Below the pieces are notes generated by a model. That model worked only from the letters and a program-made list of their open reading frames with translations. It was not told the DNA's origin and did no database searches. Positions 6,896 to 39,422 of a stretch of DNA of 43,717 nucleotides are shown piece after piece (the stretch's first letter is position 1; the number at the start of each line of letters is the position of its first letter). Source of the stretch: Chlorobiota bacterium (GTDB lineage: Bacteria; Bacteroidota; Bacteroidia; Bacteroidales; Prolixibacteraceae); NCBI GenBank assembly GCA_013152355.1, contig JAADGO010000199.1, forward strand, positions 1 through 43,717, in the 5' to 3' direction. The position numbers and the translations under genes are program-made.

Positions 6896-7642
6896 CTAAA
6901 TTTCCGATTTCTTGATCCTTTCGGCATGTTCCCCGATAATTATTATTGCCGGCATAGCTGGCTGGTTTTCTTCTAAACAAGTACTGGTACTGCCCAGCAG
7001 TGTTTCAAATGTGGCCTGCCCGGGTTGGGAGATTTTACTTAAAATATGGACGGGTATTTTTTTATTTACCCCCATCCCTATTAATTTTTCTGATAAGTTG
7101 GGCAGGTTGGCTAAGCCCATATACAGAATTACCGGAGAGCCTGTTTTTAAAACCTGCGAAACTATTTCAATGTCTTTGAAAGTCCCATCGTGGCTATGCC
7201 CGGTATAAAGAAGGGACAGGCTGTTTTTACCCCTTTCGGTGACCGGGATGCCAAACAGCGAAGCAGCAGCCAACCCGGCTGTAACCCCCGGGATTATTTC
7301 GTAGTTTAAATGGTGCTCTTCACAAAACCTTATCTCTTCAGCTCCCCGCCCAAATACCATTGGGTCGCCTGCTTTCAGCCGCACTACTTTTTTGTTTTGT
7401 TGTGCCAACTCCAGTATCATCCTGTGTATCTCGGTTTGCCTTTGTTCCTGCTTTTGCCCGTCTTTGTACAATTTCCCCACGTATGTTTTAGTTGCACTTT
7501 TCTTAGTGTTTACCAGTATTTCTTCCCCTAAAAGGGCATCGTACAAAATAGCGTCTGCTTCCTGCAACCGCTCCGATGCTTTTACTGTTAACAGTCCGGG
7601 GTCGCCAGGGCCAGCCCCTATAATTGAGATTAAGTGGCTCAT
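6896..7642 (-). CDS. cobA: Uroporphyrinogen-III C-methyltransferase
   Basis: SAM-dependent methylation of uroporphyrinogen III at C2 and C7 to precorrin-2, the first committed step to siroheme. The 248-residue protein has the family landmarks GAGPGDPGLLTVKA at the N-terminus, VRLKAGDPMVFGRGAEE, IIPGVTAG and the TGHS segment. The length fits a stand-alone CobA/SumT rather than the fused CysG. It is the last gene of a reverse-strand run starting at DUF2061, together with the precorrin-2 dehydrogenase that catalyses the next steps. Siroheme is needed by the sulfite reductase encoded at 32003-34336. Confidence 0.95.
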   Translation of the reverse strand: MSHLISIIGAGPGDPGLLTVKASERLQEADAILYDALLGEEILVNTKKSATKTYVGKLYKDGQKQEQRQTEIHRMILELAQQNKKVVRLKAGDPMVFGRGAEEIRFCEEHHLNYEIIPGVTAGLAAASLFGIPVTERGKNSLSLLYTGHSHDGTFKDIEIVSQVLKTGSPVILYMGLANLPNLSEKLIGMGVNKKIPVHILSKISQPGQATFETLLGSTSTCLEENQPAMPAIIIIGEHAERIKKSEI

Positions 7643-7708: not shown

Positions 7709-8551
7709 CTACTGCCCATTCCCAATTTCCCTCAAATAATCCATCGGGGTGCTGTATTTAAACCTGTAATCCAGGAGCTTTACCAGTTTGCTGCTGTCTA
7801 CAATTTTATAATTCCCATCCTGTGCTTTGAAATCGGGGAGGGGTTTGCCCGAAACCTTTGCCGCATATTCGTAAAAATCTTTTTTAGCAGGGTGTTCGGG
7901 GCAACAGGCATTGAATACTTCGCCCCAGGCATTTTTTTCAATTATCGTTTTAATAATCCCTATACAATCGTCCTGGTGGATAAGGTTTAACGGGTTTCCA
8001 CCATCTACCGGGTTTGTCTTCCTACTTAGAAAACGGGAGGGGTTGCGGCCGGCACCAATTAACCCGCCAAACCGTAAAACAGTGGTTTTGGTATTTGCAT
8101 TGTCGCGAAAAAGCCTTTCCACCTTCAACAATGCTTCCCCGCTTGCCTTCCCGGGGTTTATGGCATCTTCTTCTTTTACAATCTTGTTTTTTTCGGGGTA
8201 AACCGATGTGGACGAAATAAACAGTACTTTTTGTACTTTTTCGACCCCATGTTTTATAATGAATGGTATGATTTGTTTTAACTGATTGGGGTAAACATCT
8301 TCGATATTTTCTATTCGTTTGGGCGGGATTGAAACGACCAGGATACCTGTTTCAAAAAAATCTTCATCTTCAATAAAAATACTTTCCGGGTTTAAATTGA
8401 TTGTAAAAGGAATTATCCCAGCTACCTTAAGCCCCTTTTTTTTTGAAACAGAGGCAACAGAGCCTTTTACCCTGCAACCGCTTTTCAGGAGTGCCTTTCC
8501 TAAAGGGACTCCAAGCCATCCACACCCCAGTATTGAAATTGTTTTTGCCAT
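7709..8551 (-). CDS. SDR/NAD-epimerase-like protein (YeeZ type)
   Basis: A 280-residue Rossmann-fold protein with an N-terminal nucleotide motif (ILGCGWLGVPLGKALL) and a later segment LFISSTSVYPE typical of extended short-chain dehydrogenases; RFGGLIGAGRNP resembles the substrate-loop region of that family. The canonical YxxxK pair is not clear, so catalytic activity is uncertain. It sits between the precorrin-2 dehydrogenase and cobA in the siroheme operon, which suggests a link to that pathway or to sulfur assimilation, but no specific substrate can be assigned. Confidence 0.75.
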   Translation of the reverse strand: MAKTISILGCGWLGVPLGKALLKSGCRVKGSVASVSKKKGLKVAGIIPFTINLNPESIFIEDEDFFETGILVVSIPPKRIENIEDVYPNQLKQIIPFIIKHGVEKVQKVLFISSTSVYPEKNKIVKEEDAINPGKASGEALLKVERLFRDNANTKTTVLRFGGLIGAGRNPSRFLSRKTNPVDGGNPLNLIHQDDCIGIIKTIIEKNAWGEVFNACCPEHPAKKDFYEYAAKVSGKPLPDFKAQDGNYKIVDSSKLVKLLDYRFKYSTPMDYLREIGNGQ

Positions 8552-8656: not shown

Positions 8657-9109
8657 CTAATAGAACTCGGGTTGCAAATAATTTTTAATTATATCCCTCA
8701 CCCGTATTGATTCAGAAACATCCCTGCCATTCGAGCTGACTGCCACCGTCACTTGTCCGTATTGAAATATTGCGGGCGATATAAACTGGCACATCCCTGG
8801 TTGGTCGTGTATATTAACCAGTACCCCCGATTCTCTGGCATCTTTAACAATCTGCTTATCCACCTCTTTGTCGTTGGTGCACGAATAAACCATTAAGCAA
8901 CCTTGCAGGTCGTTTTTATCGTACTCTTTTTCGCGATACTCCACACCACTCCTCTTGATCTCATCGCAAACAGTTAATGCAACCACCTTTATTTCGGCAT
9001 TAAACTGCTTTAGTAGTTCAAGTTTCTTAAAAGCACTCTGCCCTCCTCCGACAATCAATATTTTTTGCCCGGATATTTCAATTGAAATTGGTAAAAAGGA
9101 TTTCTTCAT
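8657..9109 (-). CDS. Precorrin-2 dehydrogenase / sirohydrochlorin ferrochelatase-like (CysG N-terminal domain)
   Basis: The 150-residue product corresponds to the N-terminal half of CysG and to Met8/SirC: it oxidises precorrin-2 with NAD+ and, in bifunctional members, inserts iron to give siroheme. The Rossmann motif VGGGQSAFKKLELL is near the N-terminus, followed by NIHDQPGMCQFISPAI and a VAVSSNGRDVSESIR segment typical of the family. At this length it lacks the extra C-terminal region of CysG-type enzymes. A separate chelatase is not seen in the window, so it may carry out both steps or rely on one encoded elsewhere. It lies 12 bases downstream of the DUF2061 gene. Confidence 0.9.
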   Translation of the reverse strand: MKKSFLPISIEISGQKILIVGGGQSAFKKLELLKQFNAEIKVVALTVCDEIKRSGVEYREKEYDKNDLQGCLMVYSCTNDKEVDKQIVKDARESGVLVNIHDQPGMCQFISPAIFQYGQVTVAVSSNGRDVSESIRVRDIIKNYLQPEFY

Positions 9110-9121
9110 TTTTTATAGTTT

Positions 9122-9358
9122 TTAAATTTCATATTCTATAGGCGATGTTTCGGTCTTCCCGAACTTAATCCGGTTCCATGCTCTTTCATGCAGGAAATAA
9201 AGCAGCATTTTCGTAAAAAACTCCACCCCTCCGATGGCTATTGCAAAATTTAACTGCCCAATTACCAGCCAGGCAATAAGAATCGTGTCAATTGTACCAA
9301 TAGTCCTCCATGAGATACTTTTGACTAGGCTCCTGTAAGATTTTTCTTTCATATTCAT
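9122..9358 (-). CDS. DUF2061 small membrane protein
   Basis: A 78-residue protein with the DUF2061 pattern: SLVKSISWRTIGTIDTILIAW at the N-terminus, then FAIAIGGVEFFTKMLLYFLHERAWN. Two hydrophobic segments (about residues 22-36 and 40-58) suggest a small inner-membrane protein. DUF2061 genes recur next to sulfate-assimilation genes, but their biochemical role is not known to me. It is the first structural gene after the Cys-rich leader and its terminator, so it would be the first gene under attenuation control. A start at 9358 is assumed; an in-frame ATG at 9352 is also possible. Confidence 0.85.
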   Translation of the reverse strand: MNMKEKSYRSLVKSISWRTIGTIDTILIAWLVIGQLNFAIAIGGVEFFTKMLLYFLHERAWNRIKFGKTETSPIEYEI

Positions 9359-9370
9359 ATTTTTTTAACC

Positions 9371-9432
9371 TTTTGCATATTTACAAACTGTGGCAAAGCC
9401 ACCGCCTTTATATACTACAGCTATATGCAAAA
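9371..9432 (-). promoter_or_regulatory. Inverted repeat around the DUF2061 translation start region
   Basis: In the RNA of the reverse strand, TTTTGCATAT (9423-9432, overlapping the U-tract of the terminator) is the exact complement of ATATGCAAAA (9371-9380), 12 bases upstream of the DUF2061 ATG. A GTGGC-TTT-GCCAC hairpin (9390-9402) sits inside. On read-through transcripts this could hold the ribosome-binding region in a stem, adding a translational layer. This is inference from base pairing alone. Confidence 0.4.
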
Positions 9433-9458
9433 AAAACCCCTCTGCTTTTGCAGAAGGG
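9429..9458 (-). terminator. Strong intrinsic terminator between Cys leader and DUF2061
   Basis: The reverse strand has CCCTTCTGC (9450-9458), loop AAAA, GCAGAGGGG (9437-9445) and then eight T's (9429-9436). The 9-bp stem has a single G-U pair. It lies 30 bases after the leader stop codon and about 70 bases before the DUF2061 ATG. A terminator inside an operon between a short ORF and the structural genes is the hallmark of transcription attenuation. Confidence 0.9.
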
Positions 9459-9526
9459 CTCAACTTTTGATTAATATATCAATGTCTTTTAAATAATCAT
9501 ATCCTCCTGCATAGCACTATTTGCAG
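9449..9526 (-). promoter_or_regulatory. Predicted antiterminator and pause hairpins of a Cys attenuator
   Basis: Four segments on the reverse-strand RNA: segment 1 CTGCA (9522-9526), segment 2 TGCAGGAGG (9503-9511, inside leader codons 27-29), segment 3 CCTTCTGCA (9449-9457) and segment 4, the 3' terminator arm (9437-9445). Segments 2 and 3 form nine continuous pairs with one G-U, which excludes the 3:4 terminator. Segments 1 and 2 pair over five bases. The Cys codons lie 15-30 bases before segment 2. A ribosome stalled there would leave segment 2 free to pair with 3; one reaching the stop would mask segment 2 and allow termination. Confidence 0.7.
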
Positions 9527-9590
9527 CACAACACATACAGCACATGATGTTAACTACTTTTAGTGTTATCTCAGAAGTTTGTTTTTTCAT
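9489..9590 (-). CDS. Cys-rich leader peptide (33 aa), putative cysteine-sensing attenuator ORF
   Basis: A 33-codon ORF from the ATG at 9590 to TAA at 9489. It begins MKKQTSEITLKVVN and has Cys at positions 17, 18, 20 and 21 (CCMCC), followed by AANSAMQEDMII. It lies between a consensus promoter (9626-9654) and an intrinsic terminator (9429-9458), directly ahead of siroheme genes that support sulfite reduction and so cysteine synthesis. The layout matches amino-acid leader peptides in which codons for the end product sense charged tRNA. There is no signal peptide and no Gly-Gly export motif. The alternative, a small metal-binding or thiol peptide, cannot be excluded from sequence alone. Confidence 0.75.
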   Translation of the reverse strand: MKKQTSEITLKVVNIMCCMCCAANSAMQEDMII

Positions 9591-9625
9591 TTTAATATCA
9601 ATATTGATGAATTCCTTTCAGCATA

Positions 9626-9654
9626 CAAAAGTAGGTTCTATTTTTACATTACAA
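9626..9654 (-). promoter_or_regulatory. Promoter of the Cys leader / siroheme operon
   Basis: Reverse strand: -33 TTG (9652-9654), 18-base spacer, then TACTTTTG (9626-9633), a perfect TAnnTTTG -7 box. The leader ATG at 9590 is about 36 bases downstream, giving a short 5' UTR. This is one of the two best full promoter matches in the window. Confidence 0.75.
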
Positions 9655-9754
9655 AAGAAAAATAGATTTTTTTTACTCAGAAGCTGCCTAAATTTTAAAC
9701 AACTTCAAATACACTGGCCGCCATACAACTATACAAAGCAAAAAATGTAAATTA

Positions 9755-32002: not shown

Positions 32003-34336
32003 TTATCTTTTTTGTATTACAACTGACCAATAGTTCCCTATTCGTTCCTGCACCAATATTTTATGCCCTTCCCCCTTTACCGACCCTGGTACATTTTCGA
32101 TGGGCTCGCCATCGTCAAGTAATACTTCAAGGATATCGTCTGATTTTAGTTTCGACAGCTCTATCTTGGTCTTTACAAAATTCATAGGGCAGGCAACGCC
32201 TCTCAGGTCTTTTTTTAATGCCACCTTATTGGTTGCCTCCTCCTCTTTTGGCTGCTCTTTTTCTTTCTCGGCAGGGAACTGCAGTGAATCATCCATATTT
32301 TCATAAAGGTCGATAACATCTGCAGCAAGGTCAAGGACAAGGTTTTTTTGAGATGGCAGGCCTGCATAATCTCCGTTCTTCACTGCATCAACAACCTCTG
32401 AATATTTCCCGGAAACCAGCCCTGCTTTAATAAACCGCTCTGTAAAACCATCGAATATTCCGGCACTATCTTTCGGTTCAATCCCTTTTGTTATTAAAAG
32501 CATCCGTGAAGAAGCAGTTACAATCTTTGCCAGTAAAGATGCGGCCTTATTCTTATCAGTTATTTTTTTGATTTCATCCCTGCTCTGCCTTATTGTGTTG
32601 TAATCTACATCAATCATATCGAAAAGGCCGGCAGAACATTCACCTGTACCTTTTCCTGCCAAAGAAAATATCTGGTCGCTGCCCCAGTCAAAATAATAAT
32701 TCTTATCCTCCCTAAAATCAGGGATCTTACTATATTTTTGGCATAGGCTTTTAATCTCTTCTTTGCCTCCGGCTTTGAAATAATCGCTAAAGGAATGATT
32801 AGTATCCTTATTATTAAGGTAGCTGCGTAGAATATCTATTGTTAGGGCAGGCATATCCCATGCGCTCACCGAGCCAACAAGTTCGGCAAGTTGTGGGTTG
32901 CCATTGCCGATAACTGCACCTGCTACAACATTGTAAGCAGGGAACATACGGTCTGTACGGCCCACTTTACCATAAAACCCTATGTCGGCATTTGTTTGTT
33001 GCCCACAGGAATTGGGGCAGCCTGAGATATTAATGCGTATATCTTTTAACTGGTCCAGTCCAAGGCCTGAGGAGGCAAGCTTTTCCCGCAAACGTCCCGA
33101 AGCCCCTTTGGAAAGGCATATCCCAAGGCGGCAGGTATTGGCACCTGTACATGATACCAAAGAGTTCAGTATATACGACTGAGTCGTATCAACCCCTATT
33201 TCCTGAAGGAAATTGTAAACTGTAGCAATGTACTGTTTGGGGATATTACGGAGGTGGATATTCTGCCTCATGGAGAACCGGATAACATCTTCTCCGAAAG
33301 GGATTAGAAATTCGCCCAGGCTTTTAACAACCCCGGGTTCTACATCCCCATGTTCAAAAGGGATTAGTATACTTACATAACCGGCTTGTTTTTGCTGCGT
33401 AACATATCTTTCCTCCCACAAAGTAAATGCGCCCTTGTCAGCAGGTACTCCAACCGGGAGGTTTATTGTTGGCGATACGGATGGTAATAATGGCAATTCA
33501 AAATGTAATTGTTTTGACTGTTTTATCTCATCATAGATCTGGTTAAATAATTCAAAAACCTTTTCTTTCCCCAATTTGTAAAATACAAAGCGTAAGCGGG
33601 CTTTGTGTTTGTTGCGGCGATTTCCGTATCGTGAGAATAGTTTTTTTACCGCATCGGCAATGTACAGAATATCTTCGGCAGGGACAAAGTCAAACAGTAC
33701 ATGCCCTACCATTGGCTGCGACCCTAAAGAGCCTCCTATATATACTTTAAAACCTTTTTGCCCGTCTTTTACCCTGGCAATAAACCCCAGGTCGTTAAAG
33801 GCGGCAAAAGCATTGTCACTGTCAGAACCTGAAAAGGATATTTTATATTTCCTTGGCAGCGTCCACGAGTCAGGTTGTGCTATTAAATAGTTAGTTAACG
33901 CTATATTGTATGGGGTAACATCGAATACCTCATCATTTGATATGCCCGCATCAATCGATGCCATTATATTCCTCACGGTGTTGCCACCTCCACCGCGCGA
34001 TGCGAGTCCAATAGCATAAAGGCCCTGCAAAACATGGTAGGTATCTTTCAACTCCAAGTTTTGTATTTGCAGTTCCTGCCTTGTGGTAATATGAATAAGT
34101 TGGGAACCGTATTTTTGAGCAATTTCAGCAACTCTTTTCAATTGAGCAGGGGTGATAAACCCGGCCGAACACCGTACCCGCACCATATAGGTGCCGTCTT
34201 CACGCTGTTCGTAAATACCCATGGGAACCCTGAAAGCCTTAAACTCTTTAGGGTCAATCTTCTTAGACTGATACTCTTTAATCAGGTCATTATATTTCCC
34301 GATCTCCTGCTTTAATGTTGATGGTAATGTATACAT
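32003..34336 (-). CDS. Siroheme sulfite/nitrite reductase fused to a TusA-like domain
   Basis: A 777-residue hemoprotein. Residues 1 to about 500 carry the two ferredoxin-like halves of a siroheme reductase, with cluster-binding Cys396, Cys402 (SCTGANTC), Cys440 and Cys444 (GCPNSCGQ). About 555-690 is helical, similar to a HEPN-like insert annotated on other Bacteroidota sulfite reductases. Residues 708-777 are a TusA-like sulfur-transfer domain with Cys716 in GVACPMNFVKTKIELSKL. Reduction of sulfite to sulfide with transfer to the TusA Cys in the same chain is the likely design; choice of sulfite over nitrite rests on the surrounding genes. It is the last gene of the nine-gene sulfur operon. 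An acidic/lysine-rich linker (about 688-703) precedes the TusA domain. Confidence 0.9.
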   Translation of the reverse strand: MYTLPSTLKQEIGKYNDLIKEYQSKKIDPKEFKAFRVPMGIYEQREDGTYMVRVRCSAGFITPAQLKRVAEIAQKYGSQLIHITTRQELQIQNLELKDTYHVLQGLYAIGLASRGGGGNTVRNIMASIDAGISNDEVFDVTPYNIALTNYLIAQPDSWTLPRKYKISFSGSDSDNAFAAFNDLGFIARVKDGQKGFKVYIGGSLGSQPMVGHVLFDFVPAEDILYIADAVKKLFSRYGNRRNKHKARLRFVFYKLGKEKVFELFNQIYDEIKQSKQLHFELPLLPSVSPTINLPVGVPADKGAFTLWEERYVTQQKQAGYVSILIPFEHGDVEPGVVKSLGEFLIPFGEDVIRFSMRQNIHLRNIPKQYIATVYNFLQEIGVDTTQSYILNSLVSCTGANTCRLGICLSKGASGRLREKLASSGLGLDQLKDIRINISGCPNSCGQQTNADIGFYGKVGRTDRMFPAYNVVAGAVIGNGNPQLAELVGSVSAWDMPALTIDILRSYLNNKDTNHSFSDYFKAGGKEEIKSLCQKYSKIPDFREDKNYYFDWGSDQIFSLAGKGTGECSAGLFDMIDVDYNTIRQSRDEIKKITDKNKAASLLAKIVTASSRMLLITKGIEPKDSAGIFDGFTERFIKAGLVSGKYSEVVDAVKNGDYAGLPSQKNLVLDLAADVIDLYENMDDSLQFPAEKEKEQPKEEEATNKVALKKDLRGVACPMNFVKTKIELSKLKSDDILEVLLDDGEPIENVPGSVKGEGHKILVQERIGNYWSVVIQKR

Positions 34337-34418
34337 AATTGGTTTTTATCTTTTCTGTATCAGAGCAGAAAAAGGTATTGCTCTTATGCTGAAGAATATG
34401 GCTGTATTTGCCCTTATC

Positions 34419-34817
34419 CTATTCAATCACCTCTATTTTCTGCTGTGTAACAACTCCGTTTTTTATTTTAAATGACCTTATTGTCGGATTACCGGCAAGT
34501 GAAACTATAAAGTAGCTTATAGCGGGGTCATAAGCCAGGCGTATATCTTCCTGTGAAGGGCGCGCAGGCGTAGCCGGGTGGCTATGGTAATTTGCCATAA
34601 TTTCAAGTCCCTCATTTCGAGCCTGTTTTAATACATTAAACTGTTCTTCCGGGTCGAAAGAGAAATGCTCGGGGCTTTGGTCCACATTGGTCAATTCGTA
34701 ATGTTTTGTTATCACGCCATTTTTCCCGGCAAGGTAACCACAGGCCTCAACAGGGACCTCCTTTTCGGCATGTGCTACAATACGCTCTAAAACATGTTTT
34801 TTTATATTTATTTTCAT
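34419..34817 (-). CDS. JAMM/M67 metalloprotease, Mec+/HcyD/QbsD-like
   Basis: A 132-residue zinc isopeptidase of the JAMM family with a full active site: Glu24 (VEACGYLAG), His78 and His80 (NYHSHP), Ser88 and Asp91 (PSQED). Relatives in sulfur metabolism either cleave cysteine from a sulfur carrier (Mec+ with CysO) or remove residues after the carrier's Gly-Gly (QbsD with QbsE, HcyD with HcyS). The carrier encoded in this operon (37772-37990) ends GGGRYTD, so the second role fits well. The ATG overlaps the stop of the TusA gene by four bases (ATGA), implying translational coupling. Confidence 0.9.
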   Translation of the reverse strand: MKINIKKHVLERIVAHAEKEVPVEACGYLAGKNGVITKHYELTNVDQSPEHFSFDPEEQFNVLKQARNEGLEIMANYHSHPATPARPSQEDIRLAYDPAISYFIVSLAGNPTIRSFKIKNGVVTQQKIEVIE

Positions 34818-35041
34818 TTTTTCTTAATAATTACTTGATAAACATCTTCTTCAACCTGTGATATTTTAAGTACCTCATGCCCTTGTTCTGCTGCACTTCG
34901 AGGGACATTATCAAGAGGCTCTCCTTTTAATAAGTTTACTTCAAGTATATCGCCCCCGCTAAGTTTCGATAACTCTACTTTTGTTTTCACAAAAGTCATA
35001 GGGCAATGTTCTTTTGTTATGTCTAATTGATAGGTTGCCAT
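34814..35041 (-). CDS. TusA-like sulfur carrier protein
   Basis: A 75-residue protein with the TusA fold. The family's CPxP motif appears as CPMTFVKTKVELSKL, with the reactive Cys retained near residue 13 and Pro-x-Pro changed to Pro-x-Thr. The sequence closely resembles the C-terminal domain of the sulfite reductase at 32003-34336 (CPMNFVKTKIELSKL), so the two arose by duplication. It may accept sulfide or persulfide from the reductase and pass it on. It is coupled to the JAMM gene by an ATGA overlap. Confidence 0.87.
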   Translation of the reverse strand: MATYQLDITKEHCPMTFVKTKVELSKLSGGDILEVNLLKGEPLDNVPRSAAEQGHEVLKISQVEEDVYQVIIKKK

Positions 35042-35124
35042 AATATTTCTGTTTTAAAATCACTTGTTTTACTAAGTCCAAATCATTTGTCTGAAAAGAT
35101 TAAGGTGGATTTTTAGAGCTTACC

Positions 35125-35610
35125 TTAAATAAATATCCTGTCGCCACCTTCCGAGTACTCAAGGAAACGTGGTACGCCAAGCACCTCTTTTACCTCTTTA
35201 TCAAAATCTTTCAGTGTAAGGCCTAAAATGTGCATCGACATTTCGCAGGCATAGAGGTTTATTTTCAGTTCTTTTGCAGCCTGGTAAAGTTCATTTAGTG
35301 TAGCCACATTCCTTTTCTTCATAAGAGAGGACATCAACCTGGGGCTTGCCCCACAAAAATTCATTCTGCTCAAAGGCACATTCTTCCGTCCTCCCATAAG
35401 GAAATTAAAGAACCGTGCCAGGAAGCCGTTACCTATAAAAGACCTTCCTTCTTTCTTTTTAATAGCATTAAGCCCCCAGAAAGTGAAAAAGATATTCACT
35501 TCGTAGTTTACTGCAGCGGCCCCTGTTGCCAGAGTAAATGCTGCTACGAGTTTGTCAAAACTCCCACTAAAGACAATTAATGACATCTTTTTTGTTGTAC
35601 GGCCTTCCAT
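35125..35610 (-). CDS. DsrE-like sulfur-transfer protein
   Basis: A 161-residue member of the DsrE/DsrF family. The start MSLIVFSGSFDKLVAAFTLATGAAAVN, a central LMKKRNVATLNELYQAAKEL and the Cys motif LYACEMSMHILGL are typical of peroxiredoxin-like DsrE2 proteins, where the Cys carries persulfide sulfur. TusA and DsrE-type proteins work together in sulfur relay in other bacteria. It lies 12 bases downstream of the MoeB-like gene and 83 bases upstream of tusA. The hydrophobic N-terminal part might sit in or near the membrane. Confidence 0.8.
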   Translation of the reverse strand: MEGRTTKKMSLIVFSGSFDKLVAAFTLATGAAAVNYEVNIFFTFWGLNAIKKKEGRSFIGNGFLARFFNFLMGGRKNVPLSRMNFCGASPRLMSSLMKKRNVATLNELYQAAKELKINLYACEMSMHILGLTLKDFDKEVKEVLGVPRFLEYSEGGDRIFI

Positions 35611-35622
35611 AGTTTTTTTTTA

Positions 35623-36429
35623 TTAAAGTTGTTTTAAATCACAAGCCGGCATCTCAATATCCTGTAGTTCAGATATAGTGGGGTGCTTTCCGCAAACAGG
35701 GCAGTCGTCTGACCTTTTTACATCAATTGTCCTGTAATTATTTTTTAATGTGTCAAAATAATAGAGCCTGTTTGTTAACAGTTCACCTGTACCGGTCAGG
35801 TATTTCAGGGCCTCGGCAGCCTGAATCGTACCCAGCATTCCGGCTATTGCCCCAAGCACGCCTGCCTGCGAACAGGAGGGTACCGAGCCCTTTGGCGGCG
35901 GTTCATGGAATACGCACCTGTAACATGTATTCCCGGGTGTATAGGTCAGTGTCTGCCCACTAAACCTTATGATTCCGCCATGAGAAAATGCTTTGCCATT
36001 CAATACACAGGCATCATTAATAAGGAACTTGGTCGGGAAATTATCAGTGCCATCAATAATAAAATCATACTCACTGATATACTCACTGATATTTGAGGCA
36101 ACTACCAAATCCTGGTATGCATTTACTTTTACGTCAGGATTCATCAGTTCAATCTTTTCTTTGGCAGATATCACTTTGGGTTTTCCTATATCCGGAGTAA
36201 AATGGATAACCTGGCGTTGCAGGTTTGTCCTGTCTACGACATCTCCGTCAATAATCCCGATTGTCCCCACACCTGCTGCTGCAAGGTAAAGTGCTGCCGG
36301 CGAACCAAGTCCTCCGGCTCCTATGATCAGTACTTTGCCGTCCAATATTTTCTCCTGCCCTTCTACTCCTACATTCGACAGGATAATATGGCGGCTGTAT
36401 CGTTCAATTTGTTGTTCGTTCATAATCAT
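35623..36429 (-). CDS. MoeB/ThiF/HcyF-type sulfur-carrier activating enzyme
   Basis: A 268-residue E1-like adenylyltransferase. It has the ATP-binding GAGGLGSPAALYLAAAGVG, the Arg-containing DRTNLQRQVIH and the DGTDNF segment, zinc ligands CYRC and CPVC, and a Cys in PSCSQAGVLG. Such enzymes adenylate the C-terminal Gly-Gly of ThiS/MoaD-like proteins so that sulfur can be added as a thiocarboxylate. In this operon the substrate is very probably the ThiS-like protein at 37772-37990. The ATG at 36429 is 3 bases from the metY stop; an in-frame ATG two codons later (36423) is possible. Confidence 0.92.
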   Translation of the reverse strand: MIMNEQQIERYSRHIILSNVGVEGQEKILDGKVLIIGAGGLGSPAALYLAAAGVGTIGIIDGDVVDRTNLQRQVIHFTPDIGKPKVISAKEKIELMNPDVKVNAYQDLVVASNISEYISEYDFIIDGTDNFPTKFLINDACVLNGKAFSHGGIIRFSGQTLTYTPGNTCYRCVFHEPPPKGSVPSCSQAGVLGAIAGMLGTIQAAEALKYLTGTGELLTNRLYYFDTLKNNYRTIDVKRSDDCPVCGKHPTISELQDIEMPACDLKQL

Positions 36430-36431
36430 TA

Positions 36432-37664
36432 TTAATCTATTTTATTCAATGCCTGGTTTATATCGTCAATTAAGTCGCGGGCCGATTCGATACCAATAGC
36501 CATCCGTATCGTATTTTCACTAACCCCAAGCTGTACAAGCTCTTCCGGGGTGTATTCGCAAAAAATAGTCGATGCCGGATGTAATGCCAGTGTTTTGTTA
36601 TCGTTTAAATTGGTTGCCCGCCTGATAATCTTTAAATTATTGAGGAACAGGAAACATTCTTCTTTTGAAGCCAGGTCTAATGTTATTATCGCACCTGCAT
36701 ATTTCCCAAACTGCTTTTGCGATATATTATAATATGCCGAACTTTTTAGTCCCGGGTAATTTACCTTCCCGACCTTCGGATGTTTCTCCAGCCACTCTGC
36801 AATCTCCAGTGAATTAGCACATGATCTTTCTGCCCTTAAAGCAAATGTTTCTAACCCCAGGGTTTGTAAATATGCATTATGAGGTGATAAACAAGCACCA
36901 AGGTTTCTGTGTACCTCTTTTCTGAGTTTGGCAATAAAAGTAAAATGCCCGTATTTTTTTGCGTCATTGCTTAACTTCTCAGAATGTGACCAGTCGTAAG
37001 TCCCATAATCAATAACTATTCCTCCGGTAGATGTCCCTCCTCCTGAAATATATTTAGTGCCTGATATAATTTCTATATCTACATGGTGTTTTTTCGAATC
37101 AAAAAGATAAAGAGGGGTAAGGGTTGTATCAGCAATTAAAAGGATCTTATTTTCTCTCGCTATCTCTGATAAAGCACCGGCATCGGCAACTTCTAACATA
37201 GGGTTGGTAATAGTTTCGAGGAAGATGGCACGGGTATGCTTATCAATAGCCCCTTTTACACTCGTCAAATCTGTCAGGTCGGCGAAACGGAACTTAATCC
37301 CAAACGACTTCAATGTTTTATGAAACAACGAATAAGTGTTGCCAAACAAATGTTTTGTTGTGATAATATTATCTCCCGGCTGTACAAGTGCAAAAAATGT
37401 ATTTGATATAGCTGCCATTCCTGACGAGAAGCTTATAACGCCTAAAGCACCGGTTACCTCTTTAATAATATTCTCCAGGTGCTCTACCGTAGGATTCGTT
37501 AAGCGGGAATATACATGCCCGGGCTTCCTGTTTAAGAAAGCTGCTTCCAGGCTTTCTGCATCAGGGTATTCGAATGCAGCAGTATCGTAAACAGGCATCC
37601 GTAAAGCACCGTGAATATCGCTTTTATTATAAGGTGTGTTTAAAACTCTTGTCGTAAAGTCCAT
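36432..37664 (-). CDS. Cys/Met-metabolism PLP enzyme, O-acetylhomoserine sulfhydrylase-like (MetY)
   Basis: A 410-residue PLP enzyme of the cystathionine gamma-synthase superfamily. Landmarks are VYSRLTNPTVEHLE, FSSGMAAISNTFFALVQPGD, ETITNPMLEVAD and the PLP-Lys segment SGTKYISGGGTSTGG. The TNPT and G-T-S patterns favour O-acetylhomoserine sulfhydrylases over gamma-synthases, though the exact activity is not certain. MetY normally uses sulfide; in Wolinella a MetY-type enzyme uses a protein thiocarboxylate as sulfur donor, and the same gene set surrounds this one. A hairpin at 37737-37762 separates it from thiS. Confidence 0.88.
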   Translation of the reverse strand: MDFTTRVLNTPYNKSDIHGALRMPVYDTAAFEYPDAESLEAAFLNRKPGHVYSRLTNPTVEHLENIIKEVTGALGVISFSSGMAAISNTFFALVQPGDNIITTKHLFGNTYSLFHKTLKSFGIKFRFADLTDLTSVKGAIDKHTRAIFLETITNPMLEVADAGALSEIARENKILLIADTTLTPLYLFDSKKHHVDIEIISGTKYISGGGTSTGGIVIDYGTYDWSHSEKLSNDAKKYGHFTFIAKLRKEVHRNLGACLSPHNAYLQTLGLETFALRAERSCANSLEIAEWLEKHPKVGKVNYPGLKSSAYYNISQKQFGKYAGAIITLDLASKEECFLFLNNLKIIRRATNLNDNKTLALHPASTIFCEYTPEELVQLGVSENTIRMAIGIESARDLIDDINQALNKID

Positions 37665-37736
37665 AGTCTTGTCAATATTATGTAAAATACCTGTTAAGTC
37701 AGGCCTGGATAAGGTATATAGGTTAAAAATTGAAGA

Positions 37737-37762
37737 TCCGGTATAGAAATATTTATACCGGA
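37737..37762 (-). terminator. 9-bp hairpin between thiS and metY
   Basis: Reverse strand: TCCGGTATA, an 8-base loop and TATACCGGA, then TCTTCAATTTTTAA. The stem is perfect and a short T-run follows after 6 bases. It may be a weak terminator that lowers expression of the downstream genes relative to cysK and thiS, or a processing site. Confidence 0.55.
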
Positions 37763-37771
37763 CTCATTTGA

Positions 37772-37990
37772 TTAATCGGTATATCTTCCACCTCCCATAA
37801 AATACAGGTACTCAAACTCATCATTTTCGTTTACCTTCCTGGTTTCAAAATCTTCTTTCCTGACAAAAACGCCATTCAGCTGAACAGATACCATATCAAT
37901 CATTTCAACCTCGTTTAATACCAGTAGTTCTTTTACTGTAATCTCAGGCTTGTCGATTTCTTGTTCTTTGCCATTTATTTTTAATTTCAT
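37772..37990 (-). CDS. ThiS/HcyS-like sulfur carrier with a C-terminal extension after Gly-Gly
   Basis: A 72-residue ubiquitin-fold protein of the ThiS/MoaD type (MKLKINGKEQEI, ITVKELL, VSVQLNGVFVRKEDF). Carriers of this family end exactly in Gly-Gly, which is adenylated and turned into a thiocarboxylate. Here the C-terminus reads FMGGGRYTD, so four or five residues must be removed to expose Gly-Gly. This was checked codon by codon. The JAMM protease in the same operon is the obvious processing enzyme, as with QbsE/QbsD and HcyS/HcyD. It could supply sulfur to CysK or the MetY-like enzyme rather than to thiamine synthesis, since no thiamine genes are present. Confidence 0.9.
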   Translation of the reverse strand: MKLKINGKEQEIDKPEITVKELLVLNEVEMIDMVSVQLNGVFVRKEDFETRKVNENDEFEYLYFMGGGRYTD

Positions 37991-38046
37991 TCCATTTATT
38001 TTATTATGTTCGTAAATATTAATTTTATAACAGTCCGTAATAACGG

Positions 38047-38967
38047 CTAATCATAAAGCGATGTACTTAAATACCTTTCACCAGTATCGGGAAACACCAC
38101 AACAATCAATTTACCTTTATTCTCAGGGCGTTTAGCAACTTGCAAAGCAGCATAAGCAGCAGCCCCTGAGGAGATCCCGCAAAGTATACCTTCCTTGCTG
38201 ATTAATTGTTTTGTTGTATTAAAAGCATTGTCATTCGACACCTTTACCACCTCATCAATAATATTGGTATTTAGAATATCCGGTATAAAACCTGCCCCTG
38301 TACCCTGTATCTTATGAGGGCCCGGTTTGCCACCCGATAGTACGGGAGAGTCTTCCGGTTCAACAGCTATTGCCTTAAATCCAGGCTTCCTTTTTTTTAT
38401 AATTTCCGAAACACCTGTAATAGTCCCCCCGGTACCTACCCCGGACACCAGGATATCCACTTTCCCATCGGTATCATTCCATATTTCTTCAGCTGTTGTT
38501 TTACGGTGTATCAATGGATTGGCAGGGTTCTTAAACTGTTGAGGTATAAAAGATTTCTTATAGTGTTTTGCCAGTTCTTCCGCCTTTTCAATCGCTCCGT
38601 TCATTCCTTTCTCTGCCGGTGTAAGTACCAGCTCTGCACCAAAGCCTTTCAGTAACTTCCTACGCTCCATACTCATACTCTCGGGCATGGTTAAAATTAA
38701 TTTATAACCTTTGGCGGCACTGATAAATGCCAGCCCAATACCCGTATTCCCGCTTGTAGGCTCAATAATCACGGTATCTTTATCCAGCAAGTTGTTTTGC
38801 TCAGCCTCTTTAATCATCGAAAAAGCAATCCGGTCTTTAACCGAACCTGCCGGGTTGAAAAATTCAAGTTTGGCGGCTATTTGGGCAAAGCCCTCGTCAA
38901 TTATATTATTTAGTTTTACCAATGGGGTGTTCCCAATCAGCTCTATAATATTATTTGCTATTTTCAT
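38047..38967 (-). CDS. cysK: Cysteine synthase (O-acetylserine sulfhydrylase)
   Basis: A 306-residue PLP enzyme of fold type II that makes cysteine from O-acetylserine and sulfide. PLP binds Lys44 (NPAGSVKDR); TSGNTG, the phosphate loop GTGGT and the C-terminal [14 protein letters not shown] are conserved. Length and ending are those of CysK. In mycobacteria a related enzyme (CysM) takes sulfur from the thiocarboxylate of CysO, and the thiS-like gene next door makes that possible here too, but the sequence does not prove it. It starts 11 bases after the Rrf2 regulator stop. No serine acetyltransferase gene is in the window. Confidence 0.95.
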
Positions 38968-38978
38968 CCTGTTAAGTT

Positions 38979-39422
38979 TTATATATAAAACATATTTACA
39001 TTTTCTTTATTAATTTCGTCCTGCCTGGCAGCAAGGTTGTCAAGGGTCTCCGATTCCAGATAATTAATTATCTGGTCGTTTAAGCCCGTCCAGAATCCCT
39101 GTGCCGCACATTGGTATTCTCTGCTACAAGTCGAATTACTTCCAAGGCAGTCAATAATCCTCAAGTCCGATTCAAAAGCTTTGTATATATCATATACACT
39201 AATTTCCCCGGGTTTCCTTGTTAATAAATACCCACTCTTTTTACCTCCGGCATTTTTGATTAACCCGGCAGCCTTTAGTGATGATATAATCTGATCAAGG
39301 TATTTAATTGAAATGCCCTGATTTTTGGAAATCTCTTTCTGAAATATACCTTTTTCGTTTTTTTGCAGAGCCAACTCAACCATTGTTCTTATACCATATC
39401 TTATTTTTGTATTTATTCTCAT
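38979..39422 (-). CDS. Rrf2-family regulator with three Cys
   Basis: A 147-residue Rrf2 protein: an N-terminal winged helix ([51 protein letters not shown]) and Cys92, Cys99 and Cys105 in C-x6-C-x5-C. IscR has C-x5-C-x5-C at 92, 98 and 104 for its [2Fe-2S] cluster, so an Fe-S cluster is possible. CymR, another Rrf2 protein, controls cysteine metabolism in Gram-positive bacteria. As the first gene of the sulfur operon, next to a palindrome at its promoter, it is probably the operon's own repressor. Whether it senses Fe-S, O-acetylserine or a CysK complex is unknown. Confidence 0.92.

Follow-up and report, generated by a model that had tools for sequence, protein, structure and literature searches.

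The leader upstream of the siroheme genes in the window, i.e. the whole stretch of 43,717 nucleotides that was analysed (contig JAADGO010000199.1 of the Prolixibacteraceae assembly GCA_013152355.1), is very likely a trp-type, ribosome-mediated transcription attenuator read for Cys codons. The frame of its open reading frame (ORF), the Cys/Met core of the encoded peptide, the alternative stems, the terminator and the gene context are shown below; translation of the ORF, ribosome stalling, read-through of the terminator and the nature of the signal are inferred. It is likely that the leader also reads Met codons, again by inference, as there are no expression data. Genome comparison, without any bench test, strongly supports this interpretation. 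The leader is one member of a set of Cys/Met leader peptides, as a covariance model finds the same layout, with other arms, before further sulfur genes. Loci are designated by L numbers.

Organization of the leader and of the downstream genes

The features of the leader and of the genes that follow it in the window are listed here with the evidence for each.

9626..9656, minus strand: putative Bacteroidota-type promoter TTTTG-N18-TACTTTTG, of the TTTG/TAnnTTTG type, read from the sequence
9489..9590, minus strand: leader ORF of 33 codons, MKKQTSEITLKVVNIMCCMCCAANSAMQEDMII, read from the sequence, frame conserved in relatives
9572..9578, minus strand: segment 1 (ACTTCTG), alternative partner of segment 2, 1:2 stem in the aligned leaders
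9528..9542, minus strand: putative sensor codons Cys17-Cys18-Met19-Cys20-Cys21, read from the sequence, Cys/Met core in relatives
9503..9511, minus strand: segment 2, TGCAGGAGG, within the ORF and 3' of the Cys codons, 2:3 stem conserved
9449..9457, minus strand: segment 3, CCTTCTGCA, left arm of the terminator and partner of segment 2, 2:3 and 3:4 stems
9437..9445, minus strand: segment 4, GCAGAGGGG, right arm of the terminator, 3:4 stem conserved
9429..9436, minus strand: T8 tract of the intrinsic terminator, from the sequence and a terminator listing
9122..9358, minus strand: DUF2061 membrane protein, first gene past the leader, PF09834 (E 1.2e-21)
8657..9109, minus strand: precorrin-2 dehydrogenase (CysG N-terminal domain), TIGR01470 over cut-off
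7709..8551, minus strand: epimerase-like protein, PF01370 just over cut-off
6896..7642, minus strand: uroporphyrinogen-III C-methyltransferase (SUMT), TIGR01469 over cut-off

The original prediction, made from the sequence alone, had described a promoter at 9626-9654, a 33-codon ORF with Cys-Cys-Met-Cys-Cys at codons 17-21, a segment just after these codons able to form a nine-pair antiterminator, a terminator with a 9-bp stem and U8, and a siroheme operon downstream. All of these elements held. The promoter range was one base short, as the -33 box TTTG starts at 9655. The genes downstream are those for DUF2061, precorrin-2 dehydrogenase, the epimerase-like protein and SUMT. By eye, ORFs of ~280 aa resembling the epimerase-like one are found in the operon of relatives. 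A gene for a LytTR response regulator is divergent, running in the opposite direction from 9883.

The promoter consensus of Bacteroidota is TTTG/TAnnTTTG; the window leader promoter is absent from the output of a sigma-70 scan. The motif TTTG-N17-21-TAnnTTTG occurs no more than 110 nt from the leader ATG in 24/52 family leaders, compared with 5/1040 shuffles, and a looser N14-21 spacing, for which there was no shuffle control, raises this to 37/52.

The intrinsic terminator (9429-9461), which also figures in a program-made terminator list, has a 9-bp stem with one G-U pair followed by T8. The antiterminator formed by TGCAGGAGG and CCTTCTGCA comprises nine pairs, also with one G-U. Segment 2 starts 16 nt past the last Cys codon, and the stop codon starts 18 nt after the start of CAGGAGG; the last Cys codon lies 13 codons ahead of the stop, with the terminator downstream. 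An element beyond the original prediction is segment 1, near the start of the ORF, for which the CAGGAG of segment 2 is a possible partner. Folding of the window leader as RNA gave z = -4.1. At the gathering threshold, Rfam yielded no match in the window and none over the leader in 19 further loci.

A cluster of Cys codons is in itself weak evidence, because shuffled sequences yield such clusters, and it is conservation that carries the claim. Among 5000 dinucleotide shuffles of the 432-nt upstream region, 13 contained a short ORF with at least four Cys in five codons and 464 one with at least three Cys in eight codons. The latter pattern was also found in 16 of 274 control regions upstream of ORFs of at least 150 aa (L090-L129); four of six of these matches, taken at random, are the leaders themselves. 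A chance Cys cluster is rejected on the grounds of conservation, the shuffles alone being insufficient to settle the matter.

Conservation of the leader at DUF2061 loci

DUF2061 is present in 67 of 140 genomes of the family Prolixibacteraceae, with 79 matches listed; 67 loci were examined, and the other 12 matches are excluded from the counts. A leader lies upstream in 59/67 loci: 57 were identified by the covariance model R1, to which L113 and L116 are added, with leaders ~2.4 kb upstream of DUF2061. It should be noted that 51 of the 57 R1 sense matches trained the model and were thus bound to be found. In L010, L092, L094 and L111, the leader is ~1 kb upstream, with an intervening gene (by eye, glutamyl-tRNA reductase). 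In the genome of L116, this leader is found ahead of sulfate activation genes, namely cysD (PF01507) and a cysN-like gene. No leader was present in the fetched DNA of the remaining eight loci (L090, L118-L122, L124 and L125), of which L090 and L120 have a leader of the class b described below on the same strand, 6.3-6.4 kb upstream.

The species carrying the leader, from a scan of 55 of the 80 named loci, include Sunxiuqinia dokdonensis, Prolixibacter denitrificans, Mariniphaga sediminis, Draconibacterium orientale, D. sediminis, D. mangrovi, Maribellus sediminis and Maribellus maritimus. Sulfite reductase genes, i.e. CysJ-like and sulfite reductase hemoprotein-like genes (tblastn at 1e-20; Pfam for the L161 copies), lie downstream on the same strand in 27/27 leader-bearing DUF2061 loci of at least 9 kb. 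Thus, the leader of these relatives precedes sulfite reduction itself.

We initially chose 54 leaders by their Cys/Met pattern, which biases the collection towards Cys. The alignment (A1) contains 51 leaders, L007 being excluded for its divergent sequence. Common to them is a Cys/Met core, usually MMCMCC or MCMCMC; segment 2, read in frame, mostly encodes Gln-Lys. A single Cys is left in the core of L009, L022, L091 and L160. Met codons, starts included, number 320 compared with 198 Cys codons. A pure Cys reading is weakened by this, as Met codons outnumber Cys codons and a few members have one core Cys.

As a side observation, a palindrome like TGTGATAAAAGTCACA, which we take to be of the FNR/CRP type, is found just past the -7 box of the leader promoter in L095, L096, L097 and L102, near the likely start of the leader RNA.

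Selection on frame and on pairing

The distance from the ATG to segment 2 takes nine lengths, every one a multiple of three, in 51/51 A1 leaders, while that between segments 2 and 3 takes 13 lengths in all three phases. As the first keeps phase and the second does not, frame and structure evolve independently, which is what the attenuation model demands. The leader ORF thus meets the criterion for selection on frame. Class b leaders have one common phase from ATG to segment 2 in 13/13 cases, with four lengths.

All three stems are kept in A1. The 1:2 stem (seven pairs) is paired in 88.5% of 357 cells, 2:3 in 97.6% of 459 cells and 3:4 in 98.4% of 510 cells, compared with 45-63%, 42-64% and 45-62%, respectively, when the partner is slid by one to three columns. 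Both sides are changed in 32 cells of 2:3 and 28 of 3:4. The covariation score of each stem was reached by 0/500 shuffles, a figure that the relatedness of the sequences inflates. Counted by pairs, double changes are unremarkable, as 231, 101 and 190 of 500 shuffles reach the numbers seen for 1:2, 2:3 and 3:4, and covariation is confined to three double-change pairs in 2:3 and three in 3:4. For 1:2, the seven double-change cells are not above the slid versions (up to 11).

The original prediction would have been refuted by a lack of conservation of the ORF, the Cys codons or the stems in relatives; the opposite was found. Covariation, which it had proposed as a check, gave a more limited answer: the stems are kept, both-side changes involve few pairs, and the double changes of 1:2 do not exceed those of the slid controls.

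The segments of each leader also fit one another. Segment 2 was set against its own terminator arm and up to six arms of each other class (90/91 leaders usable). Class means are -9.2 to -18.4 kcal/mol for own arms versus -5.8 to -11.4 kcal/mol for foreign ones: -14.0 vs -9.3 for the siroheme class, -15.1 vs -10.2 for class b and -18.4 vs -9.2 for the first Met leader of the methionine operons described below. The own arm beats 91-100% of the foreign arms.

A set of leaders before other Cys and Met genes

Over the 140 family genomes, R1 matched in 102 at E <= 0.01, and the weak end of this list will include chance matches. Weaker R1 and R2 matches mostly lie outside this account, and the numbers of matches are lower bounds. 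Of 40 R1 sites away from the DUF2061 loci examined, one of them (L166) being the leader of L116, 37 have a Cys/Met-rich ORF. The other three (L194, L195 and L199) lack such an ORF and are false matches. No downstream gene was recognisable at L170, and those of L174 and L197 could not be judged because of contig ends.

Seven sites (L160-L164, L167 and L169) precede sulfite reductase operons without DUF2061, and L168 ends in cysJ. The leader lies directly before cysK in L187, L190 and L198, and before a carbonic-anhydrase-like gene, OsmC or DUF4395 in L165, L171, L172, L179 and L182. A further group, class b, comprises 13 distinct leaders, e.g. MNKSLSIANNIMCMCCCMFSKHVEGDTMR; L180, identical to L178, was dropped from the corresponding alignment (A3). 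Their arms differ (CACTTTCCA / TGTGGAGGG / CCCTTCACA) and the three-stem layout is unchanged. The next gene codes for OsmC in 12/13, a cysK-like gene is found in 6/13 (L181, L183-L185, L188 and L189) and a gene for a Cys/Met PLP enzyme in L178, L189, L191 and L192. The 1:2 stem of class b (nine pairs) is paired in 100% of 113 cells, 2:3 in 96.6% and 3:4 in 100% of 117 cells, with little variation for a covariation test.

Leaders with Met runs, e.g. MRQFSENMMMSMMMAMFMMMWRGKLLRKD, precede O-acetylhomoserine sulfhydrylase-metX-thrA operons in L175, L177 and L193; thrA was recognised by eye and metX only as Abhydrolase in Pfam. Each of these three operons has two Met leaders, every one with its own hairpin and T run. 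Mean numbers of Met (start excluded) and Cys per peptide are 5.2/4.0 for the siroheme and sulfite reductase leaders (n=52), 4.2/4.2 for class b (n=13), 3.2/4.0 for cysK (n=4, with L197 at a contig end), and 6.3/0 and 10.0/1.7 for the first and second leaders of the methionine operons (n=3 each). In codon content, only the methionine leaders stand apart, and they come from just three operons. The siroheme set was itself picked by a Cys/Met pattern, and the model derived from it served to find all other leaders except the first Met ones. The original prediction had thus understated the range of the leader, which in relatives heads sulfite reductase genes and whose siblings head OsmC/cysK, cysD and methionine genes.

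Tandem arrangements are not restricted to the methionine operons. Eleven loci of Marinifilum, Labilibaculum and Marinifilaceae (L201, L203, L207-L209, L212, L214, L215 and L217-L219) have two Cys leaders, at ~-390 and ~-170 from DUF2061; they were identified by a scan, and R1 finds both leaders in 11/11. In L354, an R1-type leader is followed by a second ORF that ends in CACCC and has no terminator.

Two side observations concern such arrangements. At the second tandem Cys leader of the four loci inspected, the antiterminator segment is at the stop codon. In L389, L390 and L391, two tandem Met-run leader ORFs, each with a terminator-like hairpin behind it, lie ~210-440 nt before the PF01053 match, ahead of O-acetylhomoserine sulfhydrylase-metX-thrA.

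Ribosome positions and proposed mechanism

In the proposed mechanism, when Cys-tRNA (or Met-tRNA) is plentiful the ribosome would reach the stop codon and cover segment 2, segments 3 and 4 would pair, and transcription would end at 9429-9436. When it is scarce, the ribosome would stall at codons 17-21; segment 2, left free, would pair with segment 3 ahead of the synthesis of segment 4, and transcription would continue into the siroheme genes. Without translation, segment 1 may sequester segment 2.

We folded the leaders with the ribosome footprint masked. Before segment 4 is made, the mean probability of 2:3 in A1 is 0.43 without ribosome, 0.70 with the ribosome at the Cys codons and 0.00 with the ribosome at the stop; it is higher in the stalled than in the stop state in 51/51 leaders and higher than without ribosome in 46/51. 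The stop-state value of 0.00 arises because the footprint was assumed to extend 18 nt upstream of the A site and so reaches segment 2. With the edge set at 15, 12 or 9 nt, the stop value becomes 0.02, 0.12 or 0.24, and the stalled state exceeds it in 51, 48 or 46 of 51 leaders. For the window leader, the values are 0.98 without ribosome, 0.99 stalled and 0.00 at the stop with the 18-nt edge; the last becomes 0.02, 0.05 and 0.94 with edges of 15, 12 and 9 nt. The high value without ribosome, and that at the stop with the 9-nt edge, count against the model. Its 1:2 stem is weak before segment 4 is made (probability 0.02). The class b values are 0.47, 0.63 and 0.39 (no ribosome, stalled and stop), with stalled above stop in only 7-9 of 13 leaders depending on the footprint, and hence the simple ribosome picture leaves the geometry of this class unexplained.

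At equilibrium, the terminator of the full-length leader is favoured in all states (mean probability of 3:4 >= 0.96). The switch must therefore be kinetic, decided with RNA polymerase between segments 3 and 4. From the end of segment 1 to the first core Cys codon there are 24-51 nt in 49/51 leaders, and a single stalled ribosome would thus hardly cover segment 1.

The attenuation reading of the original prediction is supported by these data; translation, stalling and the response to cysteine supply stay inferred. A bolder reading may be put forward, as a joint claim that we regard as slightly more apt to fail than to hold. It states that Prolixibacteraceae, Marinifilum and Labilibaculum control sulfur assimilation by a set of attenuators, that the proportion of Cys to Met codons in a leader determines the end product by which its branch is gated (mixed Cys/Met for sulfite reduction and Met runs for the methionine branch), and that tandem leaders ahead of one operon are gates for two thresholds or two amino acids.

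Alternative explanations

The leader might sense the general speed of translation, or Met or initiation, with Cys codons incidental to a sequence rich in ATG and TGT. In favour of this, no residue is more frequent than Met in the 51 leaders, and TGTATGTGT is nearly invariant at the nucleotide level. However, Cys-rich peptides arise from different DNA (CCC in the cysK leaders, CCICC in L404 and CCMCC in the window), and the leaders ahead of methionine genes consist of Met runs and contain little or no Cys, which makes this explanation unlikely. A still weaker case can be made for the ORF coding for a functional small Cys/Met-rich peptide, such as a copper or zinc binder, followed by a leaky ordinary terminator. 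Its frame is conserved, and by inference MCMC motifs might bind metal; however, the ORF shares sequence with segments 1 and 2, which keep their pairing in relatives, and its C-terminal residues encode segment 2. Moreover, seven leader peptides have no Pfam or NCBIfam match at E up to 10, and the peptide varies with the downstream genes. We consider this alternative very unlikely.

A metabolite-binding riboswitch or a T-box driving the terminator, with an incidental ORF, would account for the strong fold (z -4.1). This possibility is all but excluded, as there is no Rfam match at the gathering threshold in the window, the stretch from the ORF to segment 3 is poorly conserved and the frame is conserved. 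Attenuation by a ribosome that reads Cys, and probably Met, codons remains the preferred reading.

Relation to known systems

Attenuators of the trp and his type consist of a leader ORF with codons for the end product, alternative 1:2, 2:3 and 3:4 stems and an intrinsic terminator. The window leader shares with them the codon-bearing ORF, the three alternative stems and the intrinsic terminator. The structural criteria are met by the 3:4 terminator with its T tract, the mutually exclusive 2:3 stem and the 1:2 protector hairpin, and the regulatory codons match the product of the operon save in the leaders with one core Cys. Behind some leaders, the genes (OsmC, carbonic-anhydrase-like and DUF4395) cannot clearly be classed as Cys genes. 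In contrast with the trp/his type, the proposed signal of the present leaders is Cys together with Met, the sensor codons lie downstream of segment 1 instead of overlapping it, and the leaders precede siroheme/sulfite reductase or OsmC/cysK genes of Bacteroidota, sometimes in tandem. The mechanism is very likely of this known kind. What is new appears to be, as far as the open-access literature searched goes, the phylum, the combination of Cys and Met, how many operons are involved and the use in tandem.

A short ORF that carries consecutive Cys codons and precedes a cys operon is a feature shared with Actinobacteria. In mycobacteria, the Cys runs of such leaders are close to the stop codon and a conserved terminator hairpin is lacking (PMC1262725), and Canestrari 2020 reportedly concerns Cys-codon leader peptides in mycobacteria. 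The present leaders, unlike these, have an intrinsic terminator and a conserved antiterminator, and the criterion for the actinobacterial type is not met. L034, L040, L066 and L067, in which an ORF ending in CCC has no terminator behind it, seem nearer to that type. The uORFC-8-2 motif before cysS in Rhodobacterales (PMC8632094) has tandem Cys codons in an upstream ORF and a terminator stem with a U run in common with our leaders, but differs in its phylum, in its cysteinyl-tRNA synthetase gene and in having two Cys codons.

In 2010, leader-peptide systems were described as known only from Proteobacteria and Actinobacteria, in addition to the Firmicutes cases of that study (PMC2965389). Leader-peptide attenuation has been proposed in Bacteroidota, which is the feature shared with our system: strong clues were reported at amino-acid operons of Flavobacterium psychrophilum (PMC9723704), and it was proposed in a study of sORFs of Bacteroides thetaiotaomicron (PMC7366714). 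The text parts of these two papers that bear on leaders, supplements aside, name no Cys or Met leader. More generally, the open-access literature searched, supplements and most subscription papers lying outside, yielded no description of a leader-peptide attenuator of Bacteroidota that reads Cys or Met; to that extent, the absence of a prior description in the phylum, as originally stated, held.

Knowledge of sulfur amino acid sensing in Bacteroidota appears to be limited. A conserved and complete RNA switch in Draconibacterium orientale, Prolixibacter denitrificans, Marinifilum and Labilibaculum makes this question directly testable. Methionine synthesis is known to be controlled by SAM riboswitches, T-boxes or repressors; methionine leader peptides would be unusual, as would tandem leaders. 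Working attenuation, if true, would imply tight coupling of transcription and translation in these bacteria.

Distribution beyond the family and other sulfur genes of the window

At the level of the order, a scan of the 1.5 kb upstream of DUF2061 for at least four Cys in 10 codons was positive only in L034, L040 and, doubtfully, L053 among 29 loci (L032-L060), and at that of the phylum only in L066 and L067 among 29 (L061-L089). An upstream ORF with at least three Cys in eight codons is present in 10 of 30 PF01507 loci; that of L340 corresponds to the L067 leader, those of L335 and L339 count as candidates, and the remaining seven were judged by eye to be chance occurrences. With so few positive loci in order and phylum, the leader is not phylum-wide at DUF2061 or PF01507 operons.

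R1 matched in 13 of 295 genomes of the order at E <= 0.001. Of 13 loci other than the window's own, one is a class-b leader of the family and three are leaders with codons matching the downstream genes: a His leader, MNNQLHHRHFNTGYQAR, before hisG (L408), an Asn leader, MRKNSLNNNSSNNALNNNYS, before an asparagine synthase gene (L406), and a Cys leader, MLVNKGFMHLCCICCWLPTSVGGGMSYVNRIEA (CCICC), before genes for a hexapeptide transferase, likely a serine acetyltransferase, and a cysK-like protein (L404). The other nine have no codon-matched leader.

Separately, polycysteine ORFs occur ~250-300 nt before the PF01053 match in L383-L388. Together with those of L034, L040, L066 and L067, most have Cys codons near the stop and resemble actinobacterial Cys leaders. 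L383-L388, L034, L040 and the second ORFs of L066 and L067 have no obvious terminator and were not counted as attenuators of the present type.

In the window itself, the genes for a TusA-fused sulfite reductase (32003-34336) and one CysK (38047-38967) belong to a separate cluster headed by an Rrf2 gene, upstream of which no Cys leader is visible. By eye, scan and model, the genome has no such leader before cysK, cysD or the other PF01507 gene; the scan left out one Cys ORF far upstream. The cluster (32003-39422, minus strand) groups genes for Rrf2, CysK, a Cys/Met PLP enzyme, ThiF, DsrE-like and JAB-like proteins and sulfite reductase-TusA. Such a cluster recalls the sulfur-carrier (thiocarboxylate) route to homocysteine. 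An inverted repeat, CTACCTATTTGGTAGGATAGGTAG, is found ahead of the Rrf2 gene.
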